NCBI RefSeq assembly: GCF_009295515.1
Contig: NZ_RQVV01000001.1
Location: 1 to 35,407, forward strand
Length of the DNA stretch: 35,407 bases
Source: Erwinia endophytica
Lineage (GTDB): Bacteria; Pseudomonadota; Gammaproteobacteria; Enterobacterales; Enterobacteriaceae
Reading direction: 5' to 3'
In this document: one piece after another, positions 7,513 to 30,577 of the stretch
How the letters are laid out: each line of letters starts with the position of its first letter
Numbering within the stretch: the first letter of the stretch is position 1
The notes under the pieces: model-generated
Database searches by the model: none
The model's input: only the letters and a program-made list of their open reading frames with translations
Told to the model about the DNA's origin: nothing
Made by a program: the position numbers and the translations under genes

Positions 7513-7532
7513 TTAATTAACCGATTAATTTA
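7513..7532. promoter_or_regulatory. Putative TetR operator, copy 1
   Basis: Matches 18 of 20 positions of the palindrome TTAATTAATC-GATTAATTAA found at 17068-17087. It ends ten bases upstream of the -24 element at 7543. Confidence 0.6.
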
Positions 7533-7542
7533 AATTCCTGAC

Positions 7543-7558
7543 TGGCACAAAGCTTGCA
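7543..7558 (+). promoter_or_regulatory. Sigma-54 promoter 1 (-24/-12)
   Basis: CTGGCAC-N5-TTGCA matches the sigma-54 consensus YTGGCAC(G)N4TTGCW at every strongly conserved base, with the correct GG-GC spacing. The predicted start is near 7569, about 68 bases before the ATG at 7637. Two copies of the AT-rich palindrome flank it, the second on the predicted start. Confidence 0.8.
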
Positions 7559-7561
7559 AAT

Positions 7562-7581
7562 TTAATTATTCAATTAATTAA
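7562..7581. promoter_or_regulatory. Putative TetR operator, copy 2
   Basis: Matches 18 of 20 positions of the reference palindrome at 17068-17087. It covers the predicted sigma-54 transcription start (about 7569), a position fit for repression. Confidence 0.6.
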
Positions 7582-7636
7582 ATCCATGCCACTGATCGGG
7601 CAGGGTTCAGACGATGCCAATGACAGGAGAAAAGTT

Positions 7637-8116
7637 ATGACGGTTGATGACGCGATCGCGCTTTTCGATCAGCAACGAGAAAAGATCTGGTTCGAGCAAC
7701 CCGCCGAAATCGCGGCGCTGGGTCGGGGAGAGGTTCCACGAGGCACCGGTGCCCGGGGTCAGTATCTCAGTACGATTATTTTTGCTGAAGGTGAAGCCCG
7801 CACGCTGGCTGACGAAATGCTGTGGGGTTTGATCCGGGTAGCGGAGGATAACCCGGAGACAGCGGATTTAAACACCCTGCAGATGCTCATTAAAGAGATC
7901 ATCGGCTATAAAGCTGACTTCTTTGATTTCGTCAGCCTGCCGCAAGCCGCAAAATTACTGCACACTTATGTGCAGGTTGCCGCCGACTGTCAGACTCTGG
8001 ACGAGCTGGTGCGCCTGTCGCATGCGGCGCTTTCCTGGGCTAACCGCCTGCATATGTGGGTCGATTTTATTCTTCCATGGGGGCTGGGTGACGGCTTCCG
8101 TCGCGTCAAAGCCTGA
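7637..8116 (+). CDS. Small helical protein, possibly cucumopine-synthase C-domain-like
   Basis: A 159-residue, mostly helical, soluble protein. I chose MTVDDAIALFDQQREK at 7637, which has GGAGA eight to twelve bases upstream (ACAGGAGAAAAGTT); an in-frame ATG at 7586 would add 17 residues of non-typical sequence and lie almost on the transcription start. Recognisable spots are LSWANRLHMWVDFILPWGLG near the C-terminus and IKEIIGYKADFF in the middle. I do not firmly recognise the family. Because the next gene is DUF3830-like, and cucumopine synthase as I recall joins a cyclophilin-like domain to a C-terminal helical bundle, this may be the separate helical subunit. First gene of the two-gene unit driven by sigma-54 promoter 1. 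Confidence 0.8.
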   Translation: MTVDDAIALFDQQREKIWFEQPAEIAALGRGEVPRGTGARGQYLSTIIFAEGEARTLADEMLWGLIRVAEDNPETADLNTLQMLIKEIIGYKADFFDFVSLPQAAKLLHTYVQVAADCQTLDELVRLSHAALSWANRLHMWVDFILPWGLGDGFRRVKA

Positions 8117-8131
8117 CAGCCAGGAGAAATC

Positions 8132-8557
8132 ATGAAATTACAGATGAGTGTGGCAGACAAGAAAGTCTGCGTAATTGAAGTGTGGGATGACAAGGTCCCC
8201 AATCTGTGTAAAGTACTGCGTGAAAAATTGCCGATGAAAAGCGTGCTGCAGCACGGCAAACTGATCGGCGATATGGTGTTTTTCACCATGCCGATCGTCG
8301 CGCCATGGGAGAATAAATACAAAACCGAAGAGGTCGGCAAACTGCGCCGTGAGCAGTACGGCCAGGTGACCGGCGCAGTATGCTATTACAGTCCGCGTCA
8401 GCAATTTTGTGTGGTCTACGGTGATGATACCGCTGACGAACCGCTGCCAATTTCATACATTGGCGAAGTAGTGGAAGGCACCCTGGAACTGCGCGTTACC
8501 GGGTTGGAAACCTGGTTTGATCAGGGGCGGGTGGTAGAACTGAGCATTATCGGCTAA
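8132..8557 (+). CDS. DUF3830-like (cyclophilin-fold) protein
   Basis: A 141-residue protein with a predominantly beta pattern. The segments MKLQMSVADKKVCVIEVWDD, SVLQHGKLIGDMVFFTMP, QVTGAVCYYSPRQQFCVVYGD and SYIGEVVEGTLELR resemble DUF3830, a cyclophilin-like fold also present in the N-terminal part of cucumopine synthase. It lies 15 bases after the helical gene with an AGGAGA ribosome site, so the two are co-expressed and may form one enzyme. In other bacteria DUF3830 genes often sit in amino-acid or amide catabolic operons. Function unproven; the family call is by eye. Confidence 0.7.
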   Translation: MKLQMSVADKKVCVIEVWDDKVPNLCKVLREKLPMKSVLQHGKLIGDMVFFTMPIVAPWENKYKTEEVGKLRREQYGQVTGAVCYYSPRQQFCVVYGDDTADEPLPISYIGEVVEGTLELRVTGLETWFDQGRVVELSIIG

Positions 8558-8562
8558 CGCCG

Positions 8563-8587
8563 ACAGGCCGGTAAGTGACCGGCCTGT
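8563..8587. terminator. Bidirectional hairpin terminator between convergent genes
   Basis: ACAGGCCGGT and ACCGGCCTGT form a perfect 10-bp stem with loop AAGTG, between the ends of the DUF3830-like gene and the MetX-like gene. The T tract is poor (TTAT), but the position and perfect stem support a shared terminator. Confidence 0.65.
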
Positions 8588-9591
8588 TATTCCAGTAAAT
8601 CCCGCATGGCTTGTTCAATCTGCGCGGTTTCGTCCACAAAGCGTCCCGGCGCGCCGGCACAGTGGCCAAAAGGAGAAATGATTGGCCTGAACTCGCCATG
8701 TCTGAGCTGTTCACATTCGATTTCCCCCTCTTCCAGGGTGAAATAACGGTCGGTATTGCACGGCATCACCATCGTCCGGGCAGTAATGGCCGCCAGTGCC
8801 GCGTTAAAATCACCACGATATGCCGGAAGTTCAGCAATGTTGGCCTGCTGCCAGCTAAAGAGCATGGCCAGCAGATCGTTGGCATCCCAGCGCTGATGAT
8901 CCCGCGCCCAGTCATCCAGCAACGCCTGTTGGCTGTCGAAGCCCAGTTTCCGCCACAACCGCTCACGGAAAAATTGTGCTGAATATGCCCAACCCGCATA
9001 ACAACGACCAAATGCATCCAGTCCCTGTAAAGGCGGCTGAGTATAGCGCCCATTCTGCCAGAGTGGGTCGGCCTGGAGCGCGGACTTCACCCCATCCAGA
9101 AATACCTGATTCAGTGGCCAGCAACGGGCGGAACCACAGACAGCCAGCAGATTTTGCACGCGATCCGGCCAGGCGGCGGCCCAGTGCCAGGCCTGCATCG
9201 CCCCCATTGACCAACCGCTGGCGAGCGCTATCTTTTCGACGCCCAACGTCTCAATCAGCAGCGAATACTGCGCATTAATATTATCGATCAACGTAACCGG
9301 CGGAAACCGGCTGCCGGGCTGTGTGAGCGAGTTACTGGGCGAAGTCGAAACACCATTACCGAACATGTTGATCAGCACAATATACCAACGGGCGGGATCG
9401 AGCGCTCGCCCTGGGCCAATCAAGGGATAATAACTCTGGTGCGTCCCCGTGTAGTAACTGAACAGTACCACGGCGTTGTCCCGTGCCCCGTTGAGTTGCC
9501 CAAAAGACTGCCAGCCGATCGTCGCCTGCTCCAGTACCCCGCCATACTGCAAACAGAGGTCGCCTGTTCGATGAAATCCCTGCGTGTTCAT
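8587..9591 (-). CDS. MetX-like alpha/beta hydrolase (homoserine O-acetyltransferase family)
   Basis: A 334-residue alpha/beta hydrolase with the layout of the homoserine acetyltransferase family: an N-terminal strand region (QSFGQLNGARDNAVVLFSYY), an oxyanion/loop segment (NMFGNGVSTSPSN), and the nucleophile elbow GWSMGAMQ with Ser128. The likely acid is Asp281 (CNTDRYF) and the histidine is His310 (SPFGHCAG). Many such proteins are acyltransferases or hydrolases unrelated to methionine synthesis. The location in the TetR/sigma-54 cluster suggests it acylates or hydrolyses a pathway intermediate. It is divergent from the TetR gene and shares the operator-containing region 9592-9680. An SD-like GGGAGCGGG lies before the ATG. 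Confidence 0.8.
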   Translation of the reverse strand: MNTQGFHRTGDLCLQYGGVLEQATIGWQSFGQLNGARDNAVVLFSYYTGTHQSYYPLIGPGRALDPARWYIVLINMFGNGVSTSPSNSLTQPGSRFPPVTLIDNINAQYSLLIETLGVEKIALASGWSMGAMQAWHWAAAWPDRVQNLLAVCGSARCWPLNQVFLDGVKSALQADPLWQNGRYTQPPLQGLDAFGRCYAGWAYSAQFFRERLWRKLGFDSQQALLDDWARDHQRWDANDLLAMLFSWQQANIAELPAYRGDFNAALAAITARTMVMPCNTDRYFTLEEGEIECEQLRHGEFRPIISPFGHCAGAPGRFVDETAQIEQAMRDLLE

Positions 9592-9611
9592 GCTGATCCC
9601 GCTCCCGAATA

Positions 9612-9639
9612 TGATATAATTAATTAATCAGTTAACTTA
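9612..9639 (+). promoter_or_regulatory. Extended -10 promoter and TetR operator, copy 3
   Basis: TGATATAAT (9612-9620) is an extended -10 element (TGnTATAAT) reading toward the TetR gene. A 16/20 match to the reference palindrome (9620-9639) begins at its last base. This lies between the divergent MetX-like and TetR genes, as expected for autoregulation. Confidence 0.55.
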
Positions 9640-9680
9640 ATCTTACGCGTACTCAACGCCGGCGTCATAAGGGTGACCAG

Positions 9681-10310
9681 ATGAAGGAAACGACAAATTC
9701 CCGCAGTGAGACCGGCAGGAAAGCCAAGAAATCCCAGAGCGAAGTGGCTGAACTGTTGCAGTCGTCTGCCTTCGAGCTGTTTGCGCATCAGAATTATTCC
9801 TCCGTCAGGATCAAAGATATCGCTACGGCAACCGGGTTGAATTCGGCCTTGATTTATTACTATTTCGGTTCCAAAGAAGACCTGTTCGTCAAGGTTATCG
9901 AAACCACGGTGGAGAACGCCTTCCGCAAGTTCGACAACGTTATCGGCAGCGAAAATAGTCCGAAAGATATTCTGTTCCTGTGGATCGAAATCCACATCCT
10001 GCAGTTTCATCTCCTGCAGAAACTGGCAAAAATCAGTCTCGATTACTCCAGTACCAATGGTCGGATCCCGTCTATTGATAAAGCGATCAAAAAGTTCTAC
10101 GAGAAAGAATCCGTGATCCTGAAGAACACCATCAAAGAAGGCATCGCCGCCGGACAGTTCCGCGAAGTAAACCCGGCGGATATGGCGATGCTTATCTCAA
10201 CCTTTCTTGACGGCGTACTGTTTCGCAACGTGATGTTCCCTACGTTCAAATACAAACATGCCATTCAGGTCATGCGCGAGTTTGTATTCGAGCAGCTTGA
10301 ACCACGCTAA
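9681..10310 (+). CDS. TetR/AcrR family transcriptional regulator
   Basis: A 209-residue repressor-type protein. The N-terminal helix-turn-helix is clear at about residues 43-63 (RIKDIATATGLNSALIYYYF followed by GSKEDLF), the signature of TetR regulators. The remaining helical domain (IEIHILQFHLLQKLAKIS ... LISTFLDGVLFRNVMFPTF) would bind the inducer and dimerise. It starts with a basic tail of about 18 residues. It is divergent from the MetX-like gene and embedded in the catabolic cluster. I infer that it binds the AT-rich palindrome present at five sites (7513, 7562, 9620, 17068, 21413) and controls the whole cluster, and that its ligand is a pathway compound. Confidence 0.9.
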   Translation: MKETTNSRSETGRKAKKSQSEVAELLQSSAFELFAHQNYSSVRIKDIATATGLNSALIYYYFGSKEDLFVKVIETTVENAFRKFDNVIGSENSPKDILFLWIEIHILQFHLLQKLAKISLDYSSTNGRIPSIDKAIKKFYEKESVILKNTIKEGIAAGQFREVNPADMAMLISTFLDGVLFRNVMFPTFKYKHAIQVMREFVFEQLEPR

Positions 10311-10386
10311 ACCCAACGACAAATCATTCGCTCTGAATAACGGCGCGCATGGTGTCTGCATGACTGACAACCTGTGCCTGTTCTAC

Positions 10387-10413
10387 GTAGCTCACTGACT
10401 GTCAGTCAGCTAC
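10387..10413. terminator. Hairpin between convergent TetR and reductase genes
   Basis: GTAGCTCACTGAC and GTCAGTCAGCTAC are near-perfect inverted repeats (12 of 13) around one base. It lies about 75 bases past the TetR stop. It has no T run, so it is either a weak bidirectional terminator or a protein-binding palindrome. Confidence 0.45.
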
Positions 10414-10545
10414 GCTCATTCTGACTAACCCGTCCACAGGCAGCGGACATGCAGCAGCACCTTAAGAGCCAGAGATGGCTCAGCCGTTTACAGACGGAGA
10501 CCGGGCGCCTGCGAACGATTGCGCTGGGGTGACCTCAAAAATCCA

Positions 10546-11463
10546 TTATTCCGGCGCATCAATCACCAGAACAGCTGACAATGCCCGCGAACAACAGGGC
10601 ATCACCCGTCGCTGCGCCGCTTTTTGCTCATCGGTCAGATAGCTATCGCGATGATCGGCCTCACCCGCGACCATATCCAGCGCACAACTGCCACATTGCC
10701 CGACACCACAGGAAATCGCCACATCATACCCTGCGGCAATCAGCGCCTCCGCCATCGTCTGCTGACCACTGACCCAAATCCTGCGCGAGTCATCCGCTAT
10801 CTCCAGCCAAAAACCCCGCTCCGACTCCCGCCATGCCAGTGAAAATGATTCGGCAAAAATCCGCTCATCAGCAACGCCCTGCACCGCCAACGCCTCCCGC
10901 GCCGCCGCCATAAAAGCACCGGAACCGCAGAGATATACCGCCGTTTGCGGCGTCAGTTCGCTAAACAGGCTGTCTTCAATCGAAGTGTGCGTCTGCACCC
11001 CCAAATGCGCCAGGGAACCAAACACATTTAACGTCTCGCTGCGCCCCACGTAGTGAAACGCGAACGGTCTGGCGCAAACTTCCGCCATCGCCAACAGTGG
11101 CGTAATCCCAATCCCTCCCGCCAACAGCAACAACGGACGATCGCCACTCGCCAACGGAAAATGATTCACTGGCCCACTGGCCGACAATACCGTGCCGGGA
11201 TGCGCATGTTCCTGCAACCACAATCCTCCCCCCCGGGAATGGCGAGTGACCAGTACCGCAATACAATAACGGTGCTGTTCCATCGGCGAATTATACAGCG
11301 AATATTGTCGTACCCATCCATTGCCCAGCTGTAGCGCGATATGCGCGCCAGCAGTAAACGGCGGTAACTCGCCGTCCTCCGCCGCCCGAAGCTCCAGCAG
11401 CAAAACACCGCCGTTCTGTACGCGCTGCGTCACCCGCAGCGCTAACGTCTGACTGTTACTCAT
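10546..11463 (-). CDS. PDR/VanB-type ferredoxin reductase (Rieske oxygenase partner)
   Basis: A 305-residue, three-domain reductase. A flavin-binding barrel carries RQYS (52-55), an NAD(P)H domain carries LLAGGIGITP (113-122), and a C-terminal plant-type [2Fe-2S] domain has Cys252, 257, 260 and 290 (CGVGQCGSC ... MPCC). This is the order of phthalate dioxygenase reductase and VanB, which pass electrons from NADH to a Rieske oxygenase. The start at 11463 lies one base after the GS-like stop; an upstream start would lie within that gene. It is the last gene of the ten-gene run and the obvious partner of the Rieske oxygenase three genes upstream. Confidence 0.92.
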   Translation of the reverse strand: MSNSQTLALRVTQRVQNGGVLLLELRAAEDGELPPFTAGAHIALQLGNGWVRQYSLYNSPMEQHRYCIAVLVTRHSRGGGLWLQEHAHPGTVLSASGPVNHFPLASGDRPLLLLAGGIGITPLLAMAEVCARPFAFHYVGRSETLNVFGSLAHLGVQTHTSIEDSLFSELTPQTAVYLCGSGAFMAAAREALAVQGVADERIFAESFSLAWRESERGFWLEIADDSRRIWVSGQQTMAEALIAAGYDVAISCGVGQCGSCALDMVAGEADHRDSYLTDEQKAAQRRVMPCCSRALSAVLVIDAPE

Positions 11464-11464
11464 C

Positions 11465-12832
11465 TCAAAAAATCGTACTGTAACGGTCAATTTCCCACTG
11501 ACTGACATGCAGATGATAGCTGTTCCATTCCTGCAGCTTGTATTTCACAAACTCATCTTTCAGCGCCTTGCCTAACGTCGCTTCAACAAAGGGATCGCTG
11601 TCGAAGGCTTGCACCGCCTCCAGCAGATTCTGCGGCAGGAAATCAATACCGCGCGCTTTGCGTTCCTCTTCACCAATCGCGTAGAGATTATCCTCATTGG
11701 GTTGACGCGGATCGATTTTCTCGCGGATGCCTTCCAGCCCGGCAGCCAGCGCCAGTGTTGCGGCCAGATATGGATTGACGGCACCGTCGGCGTTACGCGA
11801 TTCACAGCGTCCGCCGCCAGCCGGTACGCGAACCGCATTGGTCCGGTTGTTGGAGCCCCAGGAATTGAATACCGGCGCCCAACTGAAGTAACTCATCGCC
11901 CCCTGACGCACCAGACGTTTATAGCTGTTTACCGTTGGCGCGAAAGCGGCGCATAAGGCGCGACCATGTTTAAGCAGACCGCCGATAAAGTGATAACCGG
12001 TTTCGCTCAGTCCCAGCCCCCACGGATCGTCCTGGCTACCCGGCTGATGCCTGAACAGGTTGGCACCGCTCTGCAAATCGTACAGCGACATGTTGAAATG
12101 CGCACCGGTGCCAGTCTTATCCGCAAACGGTTTCGGCATGGTCGTGGCCACCAGCCCCAGCTCTTTGGCATAGTGTTTGGCCATGAAGCGGAAGAAAATA
12201 AAACGATCACAAGAGGTCAGCGCATCAGCATAATTAAAATCAAACTCGTACTGCGAGTTGCCATCTTCATGATCGAGGGAATAAAGATCCCAGCCCAGTG
12301 CGTTAATTGTGCTGGAAACCTTATCAAGCCACGCGAACTGATCAACAAACCCCTGCAGGTCGTAGCACGGTTTAACCAGTTTGTTGTCTTTCTCCGGCAC
12401 GGTCAGCGAGCCGTCAGCTTCCCGCTTCAACAGATAGATTTCACATTCAATCCCCAGATTGAAACCAAACCCCATCTCGTTAGCCTGCTGCAAAACATTT
12501 TGCAGCGCTACGCGAGTACTGAGATCATAAGGTTTGCCCTGAAAATGGTTATCCGCCGGCATCCAGGCGATTTTCGGCTCCCACGGCAACTGGATGATAT
12601 GATCGAGATCCGGAACCGAGGTCAGCTCATCCTCGTTGGGTAACTGACCCAGACCATCCAGAGCGTAGCCGGTATAACGTTCCGATCCGGTCGCCATCTG
12701 GCTGAGATGTTCAATCGGCACCACTTTGCCCTTCGGTACACCGTGAATATCCACCCACGCGCCAATGCAATATTCCACGCCCTTCTGCTTCAGTGACTGT
12801 TTAATTTCTGCAATCTGTCCAGCTGTTTTCAT
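11465..12832 (-). CDS. Glutamine-synthetase-like gamma-glutamyl ligase (type III/GlnT-like)
   Basis: A 455-residue protein of the glutamine synthetase superfamily. It has the N-terminal beta-grasp region ([15 protein letters not shown]), metal-binding glutamates (GIECEIYLL, Glu129 and Glu131; Glu189 in DHEDG), [10 protein letters not shown] with His245, and the substrate region [18 protein letters not shown] followed by [17 protein letters not shown]. It resembles the type III/GlnT-like and gamma-glutamylmethylamide synthetase branch more than the housekeeping GlnA. Such proteins attach glutamate to an amine, as in aniline or methylamine use. In this cluster the substrate amine may come from, or be, the imported compound. 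Gaps of 9 bases upstream and 1 downstream imply one operon. Confidence 0.88.
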
Positions 12833-12841
12833 TATTCTGCC

Positions 12842-13828
12842 TCAGTTATGTTCGACGATCGGGTGCGGGACATACGGCGCTTCTAACTGGCCGATCTCCT
12901 CCGCAGTAAGGGTCAGTTCACTGGCGGCGACCGCCTCTTCGAGATGGAGGAATTTAGTCGCGCCAATCACCGGCGCGGCCACGGCCTGGCGGGTAAACAA
13001 CCAGGCCAGCGCGATCTGCGCTTGCGACACGCCGCGTGCCCTGGCAACAGCCGTCACCGCCTGGATAACCCGGCGGTCAGCTTCATCCGTCGCTTTATAG
13101 AGGAAATCGGCATAGGCGTCTTTCCCACCACGGGCGCTGCTCTGCTGCTGTTCAAGCGGACGGGTCAAACGCCCCCGTGCCAGCGGGCTCCACGGCGTGA
13201 CCCCGACGCCTTCGCTGGCGCACAACGCCAGCATTTCGCGCTCTTCCTCGCGGTACAGCAGATTAAGGTGGTTCTGCATGGCGATAAAACGCGCCCAACC
13301 GTGGTATTTCTGCACCTGCAACGCTTTACTGAACTGCCAGGCATACATCGACGAGGCGCCGAGATAACGCACCTTGCCCGCTTTCACCAGGTCGTGCAGC
13401 GCTTCCAGCGTCTCTTCCAACGGCGTCTCGTAATCCCAGCGGTGAATCTGATACAGATCGATATAATCAGTACCAAGGCGCCGCAGGCTATGGTCGCATT
13501 CGGCAAAAATCGCCTTACGTGATAGCCCCTTGCTATTCGCTCCCTGACGCATTGGGTTATATACCTTGCTGGTTATCACCACGTCATCCCGATTGGCAAA
13601 ATCCCGCAGCGCCCGCCCCAGGACTTCTTCACTGGCGCCTTTGGCGTAGATGTTCGCGGTATCGAAGAAATTAATCCCCAACTCCAGCGCTTTTTTGATA
13701 AATGTACGGCTCTGTTCTTCGTCGAAGGTCCAGCTGTAACCGCTGGCCGCAGGCGGCGCATAGGTCACGCAGCCCAGGCAAAGGGCAGAGACTTCCAGAC
13801 CGGAATGGCCCAGCTTAAGCGTTCTCAT
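12842..13828 (-). CDS. Aldo/keto reductase
   Basis: A 328-residue NADPH-dependent AKR of the Tas/YajO-like group. The catalytic tetrad is visible: Asp56 and Tyr61 in FFDTANIYAKG, Lys88 in VITSKVYNP, His129 in YQIHRWD. The C-terminal cofactor region VAAPVIGATKFLHLEEA is typical. It would reduce a carbonyl intermediate, or oxidise an alcohol, in the pathway. The ATG at 13828 lies nine bases after the Rieske stop. Confidence 0.9.
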   Translation of the reverse strand: MRTLKLGHSGLEVSALCLGCVTYAPPAASGYSWTFDEEQSRTFIKKALELGINFFDTANIYAKGASEEVLGRALRDFANRDDVVITSKVYNPMRQGANSKGLSRKAIFAECDHSLRRLGTDYIDLYQIHRWDYETPLEETLEALHDLVKAGKVRYLGASSMYAWQFSKALQVQKYHGWARFIAMQNHLNLLYREEEREMLALCASEGVGVTPWSPLARGRLTRPLEQQQSSARGGKDAYADFLYKATDEADRRVIQAVTAVARARGVSQAQIALAWLFTRQAVAAPVIGATKFLHLEEAVAASELTLTAEEIGQLEAPYVPHPIVEHN

Positions 13829-13837
13829 ATTGAGTCC

Positions 13838-15013
13838 TTATACCGCCAGTTTACGTTTCAGATAATTGGCAAAGTGCCAGACAGAGGTTTCCAGATGGCT
13901 CAGTCGTCCTGGTCTGGCTAGCTGTGAACGGCTGCCGCGCTGCTGCGCGGCGTTGATTTCCAGATCTTCCGCGACGATGGTCAACACGCCATTGCGCATC
14001 TGTTCCACCGTAGCCGGGAAATCCTCTCGCGCGGCAGATTCTTTTGAAACCAGTACCACACGGTGCCACTTAGACATGGATTTGTTCAGCGGCAGGATCA
14101 CGTTAATGGTCACCCGATCAGGGTTCAGCGACATCAGGCAAGTTGGATAGAGCAGATAGAGATCACTGCGGCGCAGATCGTCCTCTTCCAACCCGTCAAA
14201 GGGCACCAACCCTGCGGTGAGAATTTCGCTCAGTTCTCCCCTTTTGCGTAACGGCTGATGACAGACGGTCCAGCCCGGCGTATCCTCGCCAATCCAGGTC
14301 AGACGCCCCGGAAAGCTGTCCTCCAGCGTGGTACGGTGTACACCCGCGTGGTGATAACATTCGATAAAGGTCTCCACCGCCATCTTCCAGTTAAAGGGAC
14401 AGTCGTAGTCGAGGGTGAAGGCACACTGCAACGTCGCCAGATGATACTTATTCAGTACGGGCAACAGTTCGCTAAAGCGCTCGCTGAGTGACTCGACAGT
14501 GGCGGAGAAGGTGACGAAAATCATCCCGGCGATGATCTCATGGCGAATCTGCGGCAACTGGCAGTCCTGGCGAACAAAACCCTCGGCCTGTTGCATAGAT
14601 GGCGCGCCGGTCAGCCGGCCTTCAGTGTCATAACTCCAGTTGTGGAACGGGCAGACAAACACGGATGCATTGCCGCTGCCGCTGACGATCGGCACCCAGC
14701 GATGCAGGCAAACATTGGACATCACGCGGACACCTTCGCCCTTGCGAACAATCAGCAACGGCTCGCCCACCACATCGAGCGTGAAGTAGTCGTTTTCATT
14801 CGGCAACTGCCCCAAATGACCGACAAACAGCCAGTCTTCACGCAGCACCTTCTGTTCTTCAAGACGATAAAAATCATCGCTGTTATAAGCATCCGCTGGC
14901 AGCGTCTCGGCCCGCCCCGCATTGTCGCTTTGCTGAGCCAGGATACGATGGGCGATCGCCTCACCATCATCAAAACGGCAGGCAATTTTCTGTTCATTGT
15001 GCATAACATTCAT
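13838..15013 (-). CDS. Rieske non-haem iron oxygenase, alpha subunit (GbcA/CntA-like)
   Basis: A 391-residue oxygenase. The Rieske [2Fe-2S] ligands are Cys102-x-His104 (CLHRW) and Cys121-x2-His124 (CPFHNW). The mononuclear iron site is His221 and His226 in ECYHHAGVH plus Asp351 (AEDLEI). Glu218 stands where most ring-hydroxylating oxygenases have the electron-bridging Asp. A glutamate there is known for carnitine oxygenase CntA/YeaW and is common in relatives acting on quaternary amines, so N-dealkylation or C-N bond cleavage is a fair guess. The start at 15013 or 15004 (which has GAGG nine bases upstream) is uncertain. It follows the LLM gene stop at once, and the reductase is encoded three genes downstream. 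Confidence 0.92.
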   Translation of the reverse strand: MNVMHNEQKIACRFDDGEAIAHRILAQQSDNAGRAETLPADAYNSDDFYRLEEQKVLREDWLFVGHLGQLPNENDYFTLDVVGEPLLIVRKGEGVRVMSNVCLHRWVPIVSGSGNASVFVCPFHNWSYDTEGRLTGAPSMQQAEGFVRQDCQLPQIRHEIIAGMIFVTFSATVESLSERFSELLPVLNKYHLATLQCAFTLDYDCPFNWKMAVETFIECYHHAGVHRTTLEDSFPGRLTWIGEDTPGWTVCHQPLRKRGELSEILTAGLVPFDGLEEDDLRRSDLYLLYPTCLMSLNPDRVTINVILPLNKSMSKWHRVVLVSKESAAREDFPATVEQMRNGVLTIVAEDLEINAAQQRGSRSQLARPGRLSHLETSVWHFANYLKRKLAV

Positions 15014-15015
15014 CC

Positions 15016-16089
15016 TCAACGGGCCATGGCTGGCGTGAGATCAACGGTGATTTTACCCAGTTCGGCTTCCAGCAACGGGACAACCCGCTCGCCAAACAGC
15101 TCAAGAGAGCGGCGCGCCTGCGCCAGTGGCATATCACCAAACTGGAAAAAGCAGTTGTAGTGACTCGGCTTGATTGCGCGGACTTCACTAATAATCCGTT
15201 CAGCCACGGTCTCGGGGTCGCCAAACATCAGGTTGTCGCAGACCTGGTCGAGAGAAGGCTCTCCGGCAAAAGGCGGTGCCGCAATAAACGCCTCGTCGGT
15301 GACCTCAGTATTCCCCTGCAACGCGGCAATCATTCTGGCGACAAACATCGCCCGCCCCGCCGCTTCACGCGCGGCACTCCGGCTGTCGGTGACGTGAATA
15401 TATTGCTGCACCGCTACCGGCATATCGCCATCCAGCCCGGCCTCATACCAGCTCTCGCGGGCATCACTGACCATTTGCCGTAATTTGTGCGTCCCGCGAT
15501 AACCGGCGGTCATAAACGGTGTGGCCTGCCAGGGGGAGAACGCTTTCAGTACGGCCGGATTCGTCGAGGTGATGTACAGCGGCGGCAACGGCTGCTGTAG
15601 CGTGTTTAACAGGAAATGGGTCTGCAACGGCGCGCCGTGACGATCAACCGAGACGGTTTCCCCACGGGTTAACGCATCGCTGACCAACTGCCAGTGCGTC
15701 AGCAGTTGTTCTGTACGCGCTTCCACATCCAGCCCGTAGCGATCAAACTCCCAGGCCTGATAGCCACTGCCTATCCCCAACACCAGCCGTCCTTCAGTCA
15801 GGCGATCAGCCAGCGCTATCTCCTGCGCGACTCGCATCGGATGGTATAGCGGCAACACCATTACCGCGGTACCCAGTCTGATCCGGCGGGTATATCCCGC
15901 CATATGCGCCGCCATCATCAGTGGTGAAACACTGATCGAATAGTTAGTGAAATGGTGTTCAGCAAACCAGGCGGTATCGAAACCGATCGCCTCAGCCAAC
16001 TGAATCATCTGTCGCGTATCGTGGATAACGCCCTGTAGCCCGCCCGCGTTATCTTTGAAAGACATTAAGTTAAATAACCCCAGCCTCAT
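15016..16089 (-). CDS. LLM-class flavin-dependent monooxygenase
   Basis: A 357-residue luciferase-like monooxygenase. The start MRLGLFNLMSF, the segment FDTAWFAEHHFTNYSISVSP, and AVMVLPLYHPMRVAQEIALA followed by LVLGIGSGYQAWEFDRYGL are the usual TIM-barrel landmarks. These enzymes use FMNH2 and oxygen from a separate flavin reductase to oxygenate small molecules, often cleaving C-N or C-S bonds or acting on imines or amides. None of the neighbours is an obvious flavin reductase. The specific substrate is unknown. Confidence 0.88.
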   Translation of the reverse strand: MRLGLFNLMSFKDNAGGLQGVIHDTRQMIQLAEAIGFDTAWFAEHHFTNYSISVSPLMMAAHMAGYTRRIRLGTAVMVLPLYHPMRVAQEIALADRLTEGRLVLGIGSGYQAWEFDRYGLDVEARTEQLLTHWQLVSDALTRGETVSVDRHGAPLQTHFLLNTLQQPLPPLYITSTNPAVLKAFSPWQATPFMTAGYRGTHKLRQMVSDARESWYEAGLDGDMPVAVQQYIHVTDSRSAAREAAGRAMFVARMIAALQGNTEVTDEAFIAAPPFAGEPSLDQVCDNLMFGDPETVAERIISEVRAIKPSHYNCFFQFGDMPLAQARRSLELFGERVVPLLEAELGKITVDLTPAMAR

Positions 16090-16125
16090 GTTCTTCCCCG
16101 GTTAAAAAGCAGTTGAAAGGGTGCG

Positions 16126-17019
16126 TTACCGCCCCCGACCTTTGCTGTAGTGTTTTTCTATGCGGGTCTGTACCGCGCTGAGCAGCGTGGTGGCGACCAG
16201 ATACCAGATGCAGGTAACAATCAATAAAGGAATGTTTTCATAGGTTCTTGAATAAATGGCCTGGGCGGAATAAAGCAGATCAGACAGGGAGATAACACTC
16301 ACCAGCGAGGTGGTTTTCAGCATCCCGATCACCTGATTTCCGGTTGGCGGAATAATAAATGGCACCGCCTGCGGCAAGGTGACGCGTTTCAGATACTGCC
16401 CTTTGCGCATCCCTAATGCGCGCGCCGCCTCCTGTTGCCCCTCGTCCACCGAGGCGATCCCGGCACGAATAATTTCCGCCATGTAAGCTGACTCATTCAG
16501 TCCGAGGCCAAGGATCGCCGCAGTCCACGGGGTGATCAGATCATTCATACTGCCGTGCCACAGCGAAAATACACCGGGAATAGCAATGTTTACCGTGGGA
16601 TAAAGCGCGGCCAGGTTGTACCAGAAAATCAGTTGAACCAGCACTGGCGTGCCGCGGAAAAACCAAATCCAGCTACGGCTGAAACCGGCTAATAGCGGGT
16701 TGGAAGACAGTCGCATCACCGCCAGCAACACCCCTAATACAATCGCCAGCAGCATGATCACCAATGTCAGCCAACTGGTCGTCAGCAGTCCACTCAGGAT
16801 CGTTGGCGAAAATAAGTATTTGCCCACTGTCGCCCAGCCAAAGTTCTCATTGGTTATCATCGAATCAGCCACCAATGCGATCAACGCGGCGATCACCAGC
16901 GCGGACAACCACCGGCCGTAGTACCGTGACGGCACCACTTTTACCTCATCATAGGGCCACGGATTGTCTTTGGTGGCTTTCAATCTGCTGTCGTGCAGCG
17001 CCTGCTGGTTATCGGTCAT
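16126..17019 (-). CDS. Polar amino-acid-type ABC transporter permease
   Basis: A 297-residue HisM/GlnP-family inner-membrane permease with five to six hydrophobic helices and a soluble N-terminal tail (about 35 residues). The EAA loop that contacts the ATPase is clear: EAARALGMRKGQYLKRVTL followed by PQAVPFIIPP. The ATG at 17019 has AAGAGA upstream and is preferred over the ATG at 17043, which has no ribosome site. Only one permease gene is present, so a homodimer is likely. An 87-111 base gap holding the perfect palindrome separates it from the ATPase gene. Confidence 0.9.
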   Translation of the reverse strand: MTDNQQALHDSRLKATKDNPWPYDEVKVVPSRYYGRWLSALVIAALIALVADSMITNENFGWATVGKYLFSPTILSGLLTTSWLTLVIMLLAIVLGVLLAVMRLSSNPLLAGFSRSWIWFFRGTPVLVQLIFWYNLAALYPTVNIAIPGVFSLWHGSMNDLITPWTAAILGLGLNESAYMAEIIRAGIASVDEGQQEAARALGMRKGQYLKRVTLPQAVPFIIPPTGNQVIGMLKTTSLVSVISLSDLLYSAQAIYSRTYENIPLLIVTCIWYLVATTLLSAVQTRIEKHYSKGRGR

Positions 17020-17067
17020 CGCTATTCTCTTTTCGTTACGCATGGTAAATCCGTACTGAAATTCGAA

Positions 17068-17087
17068 TTAATTAATCGATTAATTAA
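17068..17087. promoter_or_regulatory. Perfect 20-bp palindrome, putative TetR operator inside the operon
   Basis: TTAATTAATC-GATTAATTAA is a perfect palindrome with 10-base arms in the gap between the ATPase and permease genes. On the minus strand TTGACT stands just upstream of it with AT-rich -10-like sequence inside it, so it may cover an internal promoter. The local AT content contrasts with the GC-rich genes on both sides. Confidence 0.7.
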
Positions 17088-17130
17088 CATCGTGAGTCAG
17101 TGAAGTCAATGGCCTTTACTACCTTATCGA

Positions 17131-17901
17131 TTACAAAATTCGTGTGAGGAAATCCCGCGTGCGCGGATGTGCAGGGGTACTGAAAATGGTCTGGGGCGCC
17201 CCGGTTTCCACGATGGCGCCGTTATCCATAAACGCCACTTTTGATGCCACATCACGGGCAAAAGACATCTCATGGGTGACAATCACCATCGTCATCCCCT
17301 CTTCGGCTAAACGGCGCATGACTGCCAGTACTTCTCCCACCAGTTCGGGATCCAGTGCCGAAGTCGGTTCATCAAACAACATCAATGTCGGTTTCATCGC
17401 CAACGCCCGGGCTATCGCCACCCGCTGTTGCTGCCCGCCGGACAGCGCCGATGGGTAGGCATGATAGCGGTGGCTCAGTCCAACGCGATCCAGTAACGCT
17501 TCAGCCTCCTGACGGGCCTGCGCTTTCGGGATCTTTTTCACCGTCACGGGCGCTTCCATCACATTTTCCAGCGCAGTCATATGTGCGAACAGATTGAAAC
17601 GCTGGAACACCATACCGATGTGCATGCGCTTACGTGCCACTTCCGCTTCTTTCAGCTCGTACAGGCGATCACCTTCCCGCCGGTAACCCACCATCTCGCC
17701 ATCAACATACAACGCGCCGCCGTCGATCTTCTCCAGATGATTAATACAGCGCAGGAAGGTCGACTTGCCCGAGCCGGAAGGCCCGATCAAACACACCACA
17801 TCTCCACTATCGATAGTCAGATCAACGCCTTTAAGGATCTCGACACCGTTAAACGATTTCCTCACCTGGTGCGCTTCCACCACCGTGGTTGTTGCTGCCA
17901 T
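17131..17901 (-). CDS. Polar amino-acid ABC transporter ATP-binding protein
   Basis: A 256-residue GlnQ/HisP-type ATPase. Walker [10 protein letters not shown] is at 40-48, the signature LSGGQQQR at 153-160, Walker B LMLFDE at 173-178, and the switch histidine in [14 protein letters not shown]. It couples ATP hydrolysis to uptake with the permease and binding protein in the same operon. It starts 18 bases after the SDR stop, so transporter and enzyme genes are interleaved. Confidence 0.93.
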
Positions 17902-17919
17902 AGCTTTCCCCCTGTCTGG

Positions 17920-18720
17920 TTACTGCGTCATATACCAGCTACTGATTCCGCCGCCGTCCACCACCAGCATCTGTCCCGTTATGTAGCTGGCGGCACTGGA
18001 TGCCAGGAAACAAACGGTTTGCGCAATTTCTTCCGGCGTACCGGCTCGCTTAAGTGGTAAGCGAGCCACCTCGGCGGCCAGTTCCGGCTCCTGCTGTTGC
18101 CAGTCTGAATCTGCCGGACGGACCGGCCCCGGGCTGACACCGCAAACGCGGATCCCCAGCGGCGCCCACTCCAGCGCCATTTGCTGCGTCAGATTGACGA
18201 TTGCCGCTTTTGCCGGGCCGTAAGCCCCGGCGTTGGGATAACAACGGTGCGCAGAGGCGCCGGCAATATTGATAACCACCCCGCCCCTCGACATGCGTTT
18301 GACCACTTCCGTGGTCACCACAAAGGTGCCGTTAAGATTAGCGTTAACCACTCGCTGCCACTGTTCATCCGTCAGTGAGAGCAGCGGTGCATGCGCGTTG
18401 GCGCCGGCATTGTTGACCAGCAGTTGAATGCCGCCCAACACCTGGTTGATGTCCTGTATGGCGGCGGTGACTTCTGCCCGAACCGTCATATCCGCCAGCC
18501 AGAAACCGGCTTTCACTCCCTGGCCGCGCAGCAAATCAACCGCCTGTTCCGCCGATTCACGGTCCGACCTGACCAGTAATGCAATATTGACGCCATAGCT
18601 GGCGAGTGTCTGCGCAATCGCCAGTCCGAGGCCTTTTGAACCGCCGGTTATCAGCGCGGTTTTTCCGCTCAGACCGTGCATAATCAGCGCCTGCGGATAA
18701 CGTGCGGTTAACCCGAGCAT
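17920..18720 (-). CDS. Short-chain dehydrogenase/reductase (SDR)
   Basis: A 266-residue classical SDR: cofactor loop TGGSKGLG at 25-32, NNAG at 103-106, catalytic Ser156 (AGASAH), Tyr167 and Lys171 (YGPAK), and the C-terminal ITGQMLVVDGGG. The ATG at 18720 has a strong GGAGGA ribosome site inside the end of the flavoprotein gene, giving a 13-base overlap; a further ATG at 18681 is possible. NAD(P)-dependent oxidation of an alcohol or reduction of a ketone in the pathway is inferred from context. Confidence 0.9.
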   Translation of the reverse strand: MLGLTARYPQALIMHGLSGKTALITGGSKGLGLAIAQTLASYGVNIALLVRSDRESAEQAVDLLRGQGVKAGFWLADMTVRAEVTAAIQDINQVLGGIQLLVNNAGANAHAPLLSLTDEQWQRVVNANLNGTFVVTTEVVKRMSRGGVVINIAGASAHRCYPNAGAYGPAKAAIVNLTQQMALEWAPLGIRVCGVSPGPVRPADSDWQQQEPELAAEVARLPLKRAGTPEEIAQTVCFLASSAASYITGQMLVVDGGGISSWYMTQ

Positions 18721-20378
18721 GGTTGTTCCTCCGGATAGATTTCGCTGGGGTGACGTGCCGCGTCGGCGACGTCTGCAGCCAATGTTCGCCCACAGATATA
18801 GCCCCACGTCAGGTTAGGCCCCAGCGTGGTGCCCGCGCCAACGGCCCGCGTACCAATGGGATTCGCCATCCCCACTCCCGCGCAGAACAGCCCCTGGATG
18901 ATCCTGCCATCCTGATGACGCACCCGCCCCTGTTCATCCGTACGCGGCCCGCCCTTGGTGGCCAAAAAGGTTCGGTTGAAAGGCACGGCGATAAACGGCG
19001 CGCGTTCAATTGGTAGCAGACCGCCGCGCAACCGCGTATCACTTTTACCGTGCGCCGAAGAGAGATGGCGCTGAAAATCCTGATCTTCGCCATGCGGGCA
19101 GAAACCGTTAAAACGGTTGACGGTCTCCTGCAGCGCAGCCACCGGTAACGCCAGTTCAGCCGCCAGTTCACTCAGTGTGTCGGCCTTACGCAGCCACCCC
19201 GGGCTACGCCAGGCGTAATAACGCAGTAACGGCGACCGTCTCAGCAGACGGGCATCGGCAATCATCCACACCGGCAACTGCAGCGGCATCCCGTGCTGAT
19301 CACGCTGGTCCAGCGCTTCGCCGAGGTTAAAGGTGAACTCATTGACAAACCGCCTGCCATGCCGGTTAACCAGAATGGCATTCGGCTCATATTGAAAAAA
19401 CACCGACAGGCCATAAGGCTCGCCCATGTAGCGCGCCGGAATGCCGCCGCCCATATTGGCCTGATCCATATGCGCCAGTGCGGCACCAATCTCTTCAGCC
19501 ATGCGATGACCATCGCCGGTATTGCTACGCGGACTGGCGATAAAATCCGTCGCGCCAGGAAAATGCGCGGTGCGCCGTTGCGCGTCCCATTCGAATCCAC
19601 CACAGGCCAGCACCACGCCTCGCGTGGTACTCACCTGCAACAGCTTGCCATGCTGGCTGAGTACTGCGCCGCTGACCTGGTGATCACCACGGGTGAGCAG
19701 CTTCACCACCTGCGCATCGGTTTCAATCCGACAACCAAGCCGACGACACCCTTCCAGCAGCCCGGTTATCAATGCCGCACCTTTGGTACGCGTACGGGTC
19801 AATGCCCGCCAGGCCAGTTTAGGCGCCATTCGCAGACTTTCACGCAGCGGATGGTGCCAGATATCCAGACCAATCGTTTCGTGATAGGTATACAACTGCG
19901 GCAAGGGCGAAGGCCGAATTTTCCAGCGTTTTTCCGCCAGCGTACTGGCCCGCAGCGGCAAGGGCGCAACCATCCGCCCCCACGCTTTTGCTCCGGCAAT
20001 CTCCGCCAGCGGATCGCCTTCAGAGGTCAGCGCAAAGCGCAGCGGCGTATGCTGTTCCACAAACTGCAGCATTTCACCCGCGCTGTCGACGAAGGCCTGC
20101 CAGAGCGGCGACTCGGTTGCCGCCCAACCCGGCGGCGCACTGTCGGACAGATAACGCATCACCTCCGCTGACGAGTCAACGATGCCGGCTGCCCGGGCAT
20201 GATGGTTAACCGGAACCCAGGTCGCGCCGCCGGACATCGCTGTGGTGCCCCCCAACCAGACAGATTTTTCCGCGACGATAACCGACAGCCCCGCAGCAGC
20301 GCTGCGCAACGCGGCACTGAGCGCCGCGCCACCGGAGCCGACAACCAGCACATCGCAGTGCAGTCTGTGCTCATCCAT
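18708..20378 (-). CDS. FAD-dependent flavoprotein (fumarate reductase/KSTD-like)
   Basis: A 556-residue soluble flavoprotein. The FAD dinucleotide fold is at the N-terminus (VLVVGSGGAALSAALRSAAA, then EKSVWLGGTTAMSGGATWVP) and the second FAD motif is near the C-terminus (LFCAGVGMANPIGTRAVGAG). This matches the fumarate reductase flavoprotein / 3-ketosteroid dehydrogenase family, which inserts or reduces C-C double bonds next to a carbonyl. There is no signal peptide and no cytochrome domain. It lies ten bases downstream of the binding-protein gene, ahead of the SDR gene. Confidence 0.9.
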   Translation of the reverse strand: MDEHRLHCDVLVVGSGGAALSAALRSAAAGLSVIVAEKSVWLGGTTAMSGGATWVPVNHHARAAGIVDSSAEVMRYLSDSAPPGWAATESPLWQAFVDSAGEMLQFVEQHTPLRFALTSEGDPLAEIAGAKAWGRMVAPLPLRASTLAEKRWKIRPSPLPQLYTYHETIGLDIWHHPLRESLRMAPKLAWRALTRTRTKGAALITGLLEGCRRLGCRIETDAQVVKLLTRGDHQVSGAVLSQHGKLLQVSTTRGVVLACGGFEWDAQRRTAHFPGATDFIASPRSNTGDGHRMAEEIGAALAHMDQANMGGGIPARYMGEPYGLSVFFQYEPNAILVNRHGRRFVNEFTFNLGEALDQRDQHGMPLQLPVWMIADARLLRRSPLLRYYAWRSPGWLRKADTLSELAAELALPVAALQETVNRFNGFCPHGEDQDFQRHLSSAHGKSDTRLRGGLLPIERAPFIAVPFNRTFLATKGGPRTDEQGRVRHQDGRIIQGLFCAGVGMANPIGTRAVGAGTTLGPNLTWGYICGRTLAADVADAARHPSEIYPEEQPCSG

Positions 20379-20388
20379 CGGCCCCCCC

Positions 20389-21279
20389 TTACAGCGGCTG
20401 AGTACTGGTCAGGTTAATCCCCGGTCTTTCCAGTTTCATCGGGCTGAGGTGCCACTTGTCCATCACACGGTCATAAGTACCATTTTGAATCAGTACCGCC
20501 ATCGCTTTGTGCAGCACATCCGCCAGTTGCTGGTTCTGATGCGCGACCACGATCCCCAGATAGTATTTCGGCATTAACGGCATGTTGATAGTCCGGATTG
20601 GCTTCGGTGCTTTGCGCTTAATATCATCGACGGACGCGGCATCATTCAGCACAAAATCAACCCGACCAGCATAAAGTGCGAGCAGCACCGCATCCGCTGA
20701 AGCCAGAGTGACTTTCTGAATGGCGGGCTGGCCATTTTTAGTGCAGTTAGGTGAGTAGATTTCATCAATCGCATGCTCGAAGTCAGTCCCGGTCTGCAAA
20801 CCGACCTTCAGGCCGCACAGCGTCAGTGGGTCGGCTTTGATGGTTTTTTCCGTCGCCAGGGTATACACCTCACTGGTGGCGTAGGCGTAATTGACAAACG
20901 TCACTTGTTTTTCCCGCTCCAGACTGTCGGAAATACACTCCACGGCCAGATCAAAGCGGCCGCTCTTTACCCCTGGGATCAAGCCATCAAAGTCGATCGA
21001 AACGGGTTTCACCGTCACCCCCAGCACCTGCCCCAGCGCGTTCCACAAATCCGGCTCGAAACCAACCATCGTTTTGTTATCTTCCGCAAACGATTCACAA
21101 GGTGGATAGTGCGCGTCTGTGACCAGGTTGAGGGTTTTACTACTGCGGATTTTTTCAGGCAATTGCGCGTGCAGCGCGGCATCCATCGCCAGTGGTTTAT
21201 CGGCTGCAGAGACAGACAGCGAAAAAGCGCCAAAACAGCAGGCAGTGATGGCGCTTAGTAACAATGTTTTCATTCTCAT
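20389..21279 (-). CDS. Polar amino-acid ABC transporter substrate-binding protein
   Basis: A 296-residue periplasmic binding protein with a clear signal peptide (MRMKTLLLSAITACCFGAF, cleavage near SVSAADK). The family-3 pattern follows: LNLVTDAHYPPCESF, MVGFEPDLWNALGQVLGV, FDGLIPGVKSGRFDLAVECIS. It captures the substrate for the permease and ATPase encoded downstream. It is the first gene of the ten-gene operon. The leader is about 100 bases from the predicted sigma-54 start, and a second in-frame ATG lies two codons in. Confidence 0.92.
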   Translation of the reverse strand: MRMKTLLLSAITACCFGAFSLSVSAADKPLAMDAALHAQLPEKIRSSKTLNLVTDAHYPPCESFAEDNKTMVGFEPDLWNALGQVLGVTVKPVSIDFDGLIPGVKSGRFDLAVECISDSLEREKQVTFVNYAYATSEVYTLATEKTIKADPLTLCGLKVGLQTGTDFEHAIDEIYSPNCTKNGQPAIQKVTLASADAVLLALYAGRVDFVLNDAASVDDIKRKAPKPIRTINMPLMPKYYLGIVVAHQNQQLADVLHKAMAVLIQNGTYDRVMDKWHLSPMKLERPGINLTSTQPL

Positions 21280-21392
21280 GCTGTTAACTCCGGATAAGAA
21301 GGCGTTACGCCTGAAGGCCCTGATGATAAAAAAGCAATAAGCGAATCAGAACGTTGCCAGTCACCCACTCCGCACGTTCCTGGCTGAATATT

Positions 21393-21408
21393 TGCAATGC
21401 CCGTGCCA
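21393..21408 (-). promoter_or_regulatory. Sigma-54 promoter 2 (-24/-12), full consensus
   Basis: On the minus strand ATGGCACG-N4-TTGCA matches the sigma-54 consensus TGGCACG-N4-TTGCA completely with correct spacing. The predicted start is near 21382, with the binding-protein ATG at 21279. A palindrome copy (21413-21432) lies just upstream of the -24 box. Confidence 0.88.
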
Positions 21409-21412
21409 TTTT

Positions 21413-21432
21413 TTAAATAACTAGTTAATTAA
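21413..21432. promoter_or_regulatory. Putative TetR operator, copy 5
   Basis: TTAAATAACT-AGTTAATTAA: arms are inverted repeats at 9 of 10 positions, and it matches 15 of 20 positions of the reference palindrome, with the outer arms conserved. It lies four bases upstream of the -24 element, like copy 1 at promoter 1. Confidence 0.5.
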
Positions 21433-21493
21433 TTACTGAACAAGACGTTGCCTGCTATTGCATTTTTCTGTATCGAGAAACAGCGGTTAAATG

Positions 21494-21532
21494 ATCACCA
21501 CAACGGTGCAATATGCCGCATTTTCTGGTGCA
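21494..21532. promoter_or_regulatory. NtrC-like enhancer upstream of sigma-54 promoter 2
   Basis: ATCACC-N5-GGTGCA (21494-21510) matches 10 of 12 bases of the NtrC consensus TGCACC-N5-GGTGCA. A second GGTGCA half-site (21527-21532) lies 22 bases further on, about two helical turns. The pair is 90-130 bases upstream of the -24 element, the usual enhancer distance for NtrC. Confidence 0.5.
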
Positions 21533-29213: not shown

Positions 29214-29481
29214 CCTTCAGCCTGCCGGTACGGCAGTGAACAGAACACGAATCCCTCCACGCTTTTTTTGATTTTTCTAAGCTGCCTGTACGGCAGTGAA
29301 CGTTCCGGGGTGAGTAAGAGCCACATTGTGGATTTTCTAAGCTGCCTGTACGGCAGTGAACGCAAACTCTCACGCACGGACTGTAGATGTCGTTTTCTAA
29401 GCTGCCTGTACGGCAGTGAACTGTTCGCGGCTCAATCCGGCGTGTTCCATCAGTTTCTAAGCTGCCTGTACGGCAGTGAAC
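29214..29481 (-). CRISPR. Type I-F CRISPR array, five repeats, four spacers, no cas genes
   Basis: Four identical 28-base repeats at 29274-29301, 29334-29361, 29394-29421 and 29454-29481, plus a degenerate repeat at 29214-29241 (about seven mismatches). On the minus strand the repeat begins GTTCACTGCC and ends CTTAGAAA, the standard I-F repeat of Pectobacterium and Serratia. Spacers are exactly 32 bases. The degenerate copy at the low-coordinate end marks the leader-distal end, so the array is transcribed leftward from a leader right of 29481. No cas gene is in the window. Confidence 0.97.
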
Positions 29482-30217: not shown

Positions 30218-30577
30218 ATGCTAAAGCTCTTCGTTAGGTACTCATCAATTGGCGTGATCAATACGCTCGTGCACTGGCTGGTATTTGTAGTGTTTTACTT
30301 ACAAGGTGCCAGTCAGTTGATCGCAAATCTGGCTGCTTTTTGCGTTGCCGTAACCTTCTCATTTTTTTTCAACGCACGCTGGACATTCAATACCGAACCA
30401 ACGACCATTCGCTATGTCCTTTATGTATTTTTTATGGGTTCCGTTGCGGCCGGAGTTGGCAGGTTGGCCGACCACGCACATTTTGCCCCATTGATTACTC
30501 TAATAACCTTCTCCTTAACCAGCCTGATATCAGGCTTTTTTTATTCCAATTTCATTGTTTTTAGGGTGAAAAAATGA
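30218..30577 (+). CDS. gtrA: GtrA-family bactoprenol-linked glucose flippase
   Basis: A 119-residue protein with four hydrophobic helices: [20 protein letters not shown] at the start and [13 protein letters not shown] in the middle are GtrA hallmarks. It flips undecaprenyl-phosphate-glucose to the periplasm for O-antigen modification. The ATG at 30218 has only weak ribosome-site support. Its stop overlaps gtrB (ATGA). Confidence 0.92.

Follow-up and report, generated by a model that had tools for sequence, protein, structure and literature searches.

Pictet-Spenglerases of the McbB/KslB/cucumopine-synthase type, opine plasmids with related Cus-type genes, and the gamma-glutamylation pathways of amines are the closest described systems to a gene island of about 13.9 kb that was analyzed here in Erwinia endophytica. 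In the gamma-glutamylation pathways, such as those for aniline, putrescine and isopropylamine, a glutamine synthetase (GS)-like ligase is accompanied by oxidizing enzymes and a hydrolase. McbB condenses tryptophan with oxaloacetaldehyde (PMC7024544), cucumopine and mikimopine contain histidine-derived parts (PMC9103826), pAtAg67 is an octopine/cucumopine-catabolic plasmid (PMC10745273), riorf22 and riorf23 are mis homologs located outside the transfer DNA (T-DNA) (PMC4242671), and lactam opines could be opened by the products of oxoprolinase-type genes located in an opine region (PMC6733357). The island lies in a window of 35,407 nucleotides (contig NZ_RQVV01000001.1, positions 1 to 35,407), which is a piece of enterobacterial chromosome from a genome of 4.23 Mb in 61 contigs, and is flanked by a type VI secretion gene on one side and by a trehalase gene on the other. 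Sequence and predicted fold revealed one conserved gene set, an amino-acid-type importer, and a two-subunit relative of McbB and KslB with an aligned glutamate. We propose, with a probability of about 0.5, that the island serves the uptake and degradation of an opine-like cyclic amino-acid conjugate whose ring is opened by the subunit pair in a retro-Pictet-Spengler reaction; the substrate, the direction and the order of the oxidative steps are what we infer.

Compared with KslB and McbB (PDB 9ns6, 9k0a and 3x27), the pair has the same two folds, the aligned glutamate as in McbB and the helical-then-barrel order as in KslB, but it consists of two separate subunits and stands with an importer in a catabolic setting. 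The pair of pRi1724 (riorf22/riorf23 in print; cus/mis family) is also split into barrel and helical proteins beside an amino-acid importer, but its order is barrel then helical, oxoprolinase genes lie beside it, and the identity in the helical part is 24.8%. As in the island, the cucumopine-catabolic region of pAtAG67 and its counterpart on pRi2659 combine an amino-acid importer with Cus-type proteins in a degradative cluster. Their Cus proteins are fused, however, and accompanied by histidine-degradation (hut) genes and oxoprolinase A/B, neither of which is near the island, whereas the island has Rieske, luciferase-like monooxygenase (LLM), flavin adenine dinucleotide (FAD), short-chain dehydrogenase (SDR), aldo/keto reductase (AKR) and GS enzymes together with sigma-54/TetR-type sites. 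A GS-like ligase, oxidizing enzymes and a hydrolase are shared with the gamma-glutamylation pathways, but no glutamine-amidotransferase-type hydrolase was seen in the island, where a MetX-like or creatininase-type enzyme is found instead. No published description of the island was found, although none of the literature searches addressed the gene set as a whole.

A Pictet-Spenglerase-type enzyme on two subunits

The helical gene product matched Pfam Cucumopine_C (PF18631; 1.6e-46) and has the fold of that family. The DUF3830 protein encoded next to it has the cyclophilin-like barrel fold of the family (model predicted local distance difference test, 74.7), and its Glu103 aligned with Glu97 of McbB, which we take to be a catalytic-type glutamate; the alignment depends on a two-residue gap. 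By sequence and predicted fold, the two proteins together correspond to a Pictet-Spenglerase of the McbB/KslB/cucumopine-synthase type, with one half on each subunit. The one-chain arrangement is absent, the two genes being 15 bases apart in the window and separate open reading frames (ORFs) in the 18 island loci holding them. A preliminary description, made from the letters of the window alone, had listed the DUF3830 and helical genes correctly but had missed their identity as Pictet-Spenglerase halves. In a sampling for the helical gene, only the window's own copy was found in its order (1/394) and phylum (1/398), and the counts were 5/296 in the class of a Streptomyces genome, 2/308 in the class of a Rhodobacterales genome and 2/35 in the family of a Frankia-like genome.

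Conservation of the island

Related loci were collected by a scan with an alignment of 20 Rieske relatives (from 68 matches), one genome per species, and all counts out of 80 and 21 rest on 80 of the 93 pattern matches. The core set was defined as 13 genes, the reductase being left out, with identity cut-offs set for each gene (55% for the ATPase). Of the 80 loci listed, 21 held 10-13 core genes, two held 7 and 5 (a 9-kb contig and a decayed island in a Sodalis symbiont, respectively), and 57 held four or fewer. The genes thus travel together elsewhere, as the preliminary description had asked, and a chance neighborhood is ruled out. The ten minus-strand genes that were taken there as one set stand in part: nine of them form the set with the MetX-like, TetR and pair genes, but the reductase was rejected as a core gene since it passed the cut-off in only 2/21 island loci, with weaker or split matches in L028 and L034. 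The gene set is common to Enterobacterales, Pseudomonas and Alphaproteobacteria, and its order is rearranged between these groups. The nearest named carrier among the loci listed was Pantoea sp. BAV 3049, with 89% identity over the Rieske protein.

Within the 21 island loci, the helical, barrel and LLM genes were present in 18 and the MetX and ATPase genes in 17; the pair is missing from three, in one of which (L034) it may lie beyond the fetched stretch. The GS-like ligase is among the most conserved enzymes (71-97% identity in 19 loci and 49-50% in two), and the pair is nearly as conserved where present (62-95%). Among the four loci without MetX, those of Kaistia, Acidisoma silvae and Methylobrevis have a creatininase-family gene beside the GS gene instead, which suggests that a different enzyme carries out the same hydrolytic step in these three relatives. 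In a Pseudomonas locus (L031), a flavin reductase gene follows the GS gene, which fits an LLM enzyme dependent on reduced flavin mononucleotide (FMNH2).

The genes flanking the island rarely travel with it (trehalase in 2/21 loci and two left-flank genes in 0/21, within the 20 kb fetched). The Rieske gene was found in 4/37 genomes of the genus, own genome included, and a search of 198 genomes of the family gave 49 matches, of which four were close orthologues (own included) and one was a fragment of a decayed island. The G+C content is 0.565 in the ten-gene operon and 0.525 in the rest of the island, against 0.468 and 0.451 in the flanks. The patchy presence, odd G+C content and varied gene order point to a spread of the island by horizontal transfer. 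The names of many carriers refer to bark beetles, maple sap, dead wood or mangrove, which we presume to be their habitats.

Two sets of partial loci were also observed. The decayed copy in Candidatus Sodalis endolongispinus (L067, L112) has a Rieske match that is cut short and LLM and FAD genes in pieces, and the pair was not found in the stretch fetched. Three betaproteobacterial loci (L043, L045 and L053) hold MetX-like, GS-like and Rieske genes together without importer and pair, possibly for a related and simpler amine pathway.

Promoters and candidate operators

With one mismatch allowed, the sigma-54 motif matched three places in the window, where shuffles gave an expectation of 3.5; by itself the motif is weak evidence, and its place and conservation weigh more. 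A box scoring at least 10 was found upstream of the binding-protein gene in 20/26 loci, window included, and a box scoring at least 9.5 upstream of the helical gene in 13/23 loci, comprising all 13 enterobacterial loci and none of the 10 others. The region upstream of tetR, serving as a built-in control, reached a score of 10 in 0/25 loci (best 8.5). Loci L023 and L106 are near-duplicates in these counts and in those of the palindrome below. In the Rhodobacterales-type loci L039, L046, L051 and L062, no sigma-54-type box was found at the binding-protein or helical gene.

The palindrome TTAATTAATCAGTTAATTTAA, whose consensus was picked after the sites of the window and its relatives had been seen, occurred with up to four mismatches at five places in the window (7513, 7562, 9620, 17068 and 21412), all inside the island, and had no match in any of 20 dinucleotide shuffles. 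Copies within the same limit were present before the binding-protein gene in 14/26 loci, the helical gene in 10/23 and tetR in 13/25. In the whole genome, all seven matches to a degenerate palindrome with 0-1 mismatch were the five island places, while up to three mismatches gave 26 matches versus 34 for the reversed control. Because of their position and co-conservation, the palindromes are probably bound by the TetR regulator. The claim that the island is a single co-inherited catabolic unit tied together by two sigma-54 promoters and shared TetR-type palindromes was supported both by the 21 loci and by these sites. None of the island ORFs was recognized as a sigma-54 activator, and the promoters are assumed to depend on NtrC or some other activator encoded elsewhere; the island may serve the supply of nitrogen, as the preliminary description had proposed. 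A candidate NtrC-type site (GCACY-N-RGTG) lies 214-244 bases upstream of the binding-protein gene in 7/26 loci, window included (and at 52 bases in L030), and an everted GTGCA-N-TGCAC at the promoter of the pair in 7/23; these are raw counts, with no shuffle control.

Gene neighborhoods of Cus-type relatives

Fourteen Cus-type loci outside the island, which were chosen rather than random and of which nine came from plasmid listings of 6, 7 and 16 records, were scored for hut and oxoprolinase genes by annotation and by tblastn with the corresponding proteins. Hut genes lay near relatives of the pair in eight of the 14 (7/13 counting Sinorhizobium medicae once). In a Frankia-like genome with zero branch length to Frankia canadensis P0113, the importer and the pair (identity to the window of 51% for the binding protein, 54% for the permease, 62% for the ATPase, 66% for the helical and 71% for the barrel protein) adjoin hutH, hutU, hutF, hutI and an allantoate-amidohydrolase-like gene. 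In an alphaproteobacterium, hutH and hutU stand together with a split pair, oxoprolinase A/B, an importer and RpiR; pSYM of Paraburkholderia phenoliruptrix has an importer, a fused Cus gene and hutH, U, D, I, F and G; and pHS1 of Sodalis praecaptivus has a split pair, hutH, an importer and oxoprolinase. Two fused Cus genes stand with hutC, H, F, I, G, U and D, oxoprolinase and importers on pAtAG67 and pRi2659, and the split pair of pRi1724 (L138) stands with an importer and oxoprolinase. The earlier suggestion of an opine-like compound is strengthened because the pair is related to the family of cucumopine/mikimopine synthases and to genes of opine plasmids that adjoin importers and hut genes. 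The presence of hutU in carriers is weak evidence, most of the genus having this gene; in the only carrier that lacks it (G054) the island is decayed, and the copy in G948 holds a stop.

Sodalis praecaptivus seems to carry both types, a chromosomal island like that of the window (L107) and the riorf22/23-type pair with hutH on pHS1 (L134). On a Rhodococcus plasmid (L136, 10114-11100), a fused Cus-type protein is encoded beside genes for a peptide-type importer and a C45 peptidase, with no hut gene found there, and likely belongs to a different substrate class.

Features of the island and the window

The ten minus-strand genes, the MetX-like and TetR genes and the plus-strand pair are intact ORFs of the families first assigned to them (Table 1). 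Within the ten-gene run, the intergenic gaps range from -44 to 87 bases. The GS-like ligase passed the TIGR03105 (type III glutamate-ammonia ligase) cut-off with 632.7 versus 469.6 bits. Glycine-betaine monooxygenase (GbcA) was rejected as the identity of the Rieske alpha subunit, which scored 123.5 bits against the curated NCBIfam cut-off of 670.

Table 1. Positions of the genes, promoters and candidate operators of the island in the window
Feature	Position	Strand	Remarks
Palindromic operator 1	7513..7533	+	directly upstream of the -24 box, promoter of the pair
Sigma-54 -24/-12 promoter, two-gene unit (TGGCACAAAGCTTGCA)	7543..7558	+	exact TGGCAC-N5-TTGC at 7543
Palindromic operator 2	7562..7582	+	directly downstream of the -12 box, promoter of the pair
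Helical-bundle subunit, split Pictet-Spenglerase-type enzyme	7586..8116	+	PF18631 Cucumopine_C; likely start ATG 7637
Cyclophilin-like barrel subunit (DUF3830)	8132..8557	+	invariant Glu103 aligned with McbB Glu97
MetX-like alpha/beta hydrolase, PRK07581 subfamily	8587..9591	-	17/21 island loci
Palindromic operator 3	9620..9640	+	between metX-like gene and tetR
TetR-family regulator	9681..10310	+	21/21 island loci
Iron-sulfur flavin reductase, presumably serving the Rieske oxygenase; optional	10546..11508	-	likely start near 11466
Type III GS-like ligase, glutamate-methylamine ligase family	11465..12832	-	TIGR03105; solved relative 9qur
AKR	12842..13828	-	family match
Rieske oxygenase alpha subunit	13838..15019	-	nearest solved relative carnitine monooxygenase; likely ATG 15004
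LLM (FMNH2)	15016..16089	-	family match
Amino-acid-type ATP-binding cassette (ABC) permease	16126..17043	-	family match
Palindromic operator 4	17068..17088	+	gap between ATPase and permease genes
Amino-acid-type ABC ATPase	17131..17901	-	family match
SDR	17920..18807	-	likely start near 18681
Ketosteroid-dehydrogenase-like FAD enzyme	18708..20378	-	family match
Amino-acid-type periplasmic binding protein	20389..21279	-	family match; fold-wide alignment with amino-acid binders
Sigma-54 -24/-12 promoter, ten-gene operon (TGGCACGGGCATTGCA)	21393..21408	-	exact TGGCAC-N5-TTGC at 21394
Palindromic operator 5	21412..21432	-	directly upstream of the -24 box, operon promoter

Elsewhere in the window, a small CRISPR array (29274-29481, minus strand) contains four Rfam CRISPR-DR4 repeats with 60-base spacing; no cas gene was recognized by eye among window ORFs of at least 180 amino acids, where families were not scanned. 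By eye, a bactoprenol-type glycosyltransferase gene followed by a gene for a large membrane protein (30574-33013, plus strand) resembles O-antigen glucosylation modules, and an ORF at the window edge (34734-35405, minus strand) seems to join the end of an IS3-type transposase to a tail-fibre-like stretch.

Discussion

In the proposed pathway, the compound would consist of an amino acid and a carbonyl partner, onto which the amine and the side-chain ring of the amino acid are closed. It would be captured by the binding protein, and an amino-acid part in the ligand fits because this protein aligned with amino-acid binders over the whole fold. The pair would protonate a ring carbon and run the Pictet-Spengler reaction backwards, and ring opening would free the amine-bearing amino acid together with an aldehyde or keto acid. 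The amino-acid half is most likely histidine or a derivative; if the product is histidine, it would be handed on to the hut genes of the chromosome. An amine may be glutamylated by the GS-like ligase, the MetX-like hydrolase may remove the glutamyl tag or open an amide, and the Rieske, LLM, FAD, SDR and AKR enzymes would oxidize the remainder. TetR at the palindromes beside the -24/-12 boxes would keep the sigma-54 polymerase off until the compound or its product is present. Judged from gene context, retro-Pictet-Spengler cleavage seems to be the simplest reading for a Cus-type enzyme that has importers and genes for histidine degradation as neighbors. No enzyme that runs the Pictet-Spengler reaction in reverse during opine catabolism was described in the parts of the literature covered, which did not extend to Hooykaas et al. 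2022 on pAtAg67.

Several observations weigh against this proposal. The barrel fold alone is unspecific, being equally close to TM1367, KslB and McbB, and the sequence profile of the barrel reached KslB in PDB only at an E-value of 1.5. The solved relatives McbB and KslB are ring-closing synthases, and no ring opening by any family member was described in the literature covered. The helical-bundle gene had no match in the whole genomes of Kaistia and Acidisoma silvae, which keep ten of the other eleven genes; the rest of the island can therefore work without the pair. Neither the order of the five redox enzymes nor the need for them is explained by the proposal, and since these enzymes are retained along with the GS-like ligase, the substrate may be something other than a histidine opine. 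By annotation and tblastn, no hut or oxoprolinase gene was found in the stretch covered at any of 22 island loci, window included, which rules out a complete hut-type opine cluster. In addition, no hut gene was found in the stretch examined at six of the 14 Cus-type loci (L125-L128, L136 and L138), which include an actinobacterial locus (L125), the McbB locus (L126), the Rhodococcus plasmid (L136) and pRi1724 (L138), and on the two alike Sinorhizobium medicae plasmids about 12-14 kb separate one split pair from the hut genes, of which hutH is annotated in the first plasmid and hutI was found by tblastn in both.

The absence of the helical subunit from Kaistia and Acidisoma silvae would also be expected if the island degraded an N-methylated or aromatic plant amine, with the GS-like ligase glutamylating either the amine itself or the methylamine that a Rieske demethylase releases, and the pair in a side role. 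The high conservation of the GS-like ligase, its passing of the type III cut-off and its nearest solved chain (glutamate-methylamine ligase, 9qur) agree with such a function, as does the nearest solved chain of the Rieske subunit, and the three betaproteobacterial loci have MetX-like, GS and Rieske genes but no pair. In aniline pathways, a GS-like ligase acts before a Rieske enzyme. However, none of the island ORFs was recognized as an N-methylglutamate enzyme, the Rieske subunit is far under the GbcA cut-off, and the pair shares the palindromes and is nearly as conserved as the GS-like ligase, so that we consider a plant amine an unlikely substrate.

Rieske and LLM reactions can release aldehydes, and the pair might work forwards by condensing a reactive aldehyde or keto acid from the pathway with an amino acid, for detoxification, as a signal or as an alkaloid. 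Such a direction would match the solved synthases, but the island has an importer and no exporter was seen in it, and the hut genes at eight of the 14 related loci, mostly with importers, mark a degradative setting; we regard forward action as quite improbable. That the ten-gene operon and the pair are independent units and neighbors by accident is very improbable: three loci lack the pair (possibly by truncation of the fetched stretch in L034) and the Frankia-like genome has pair and importer without the oxidative genes, but both units share the palindromes and promoter type, and the set stays together in Enterobacterales, Pseudomonas and Alphaproteobacteria despite its rearranged order.

Taking the ring-opening function of the pair further, we tentatively suggest that bacteria far from Agrobacterium carry "opine lyases", namely two-subunit Pictet-Spenglerases running in reverse and thereby releasing an amino acid from a cyclic alkaloid, and that the island represents a new pathway, perhaps for a compound of woody plants or wood fungi. 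If this is true, an alkaloid-forming enzyme family would be used for breakdown, and the DUF3830 and cucumopine-synthase-related families would gain a testable function. In addition, the island provides a sensor of the sigma-54/TetR type for a compound that awaits discovery, and opine-type nutrition would extend from Agrobacterium plasmids to the chromosomal islands of plant-associated bacteria.

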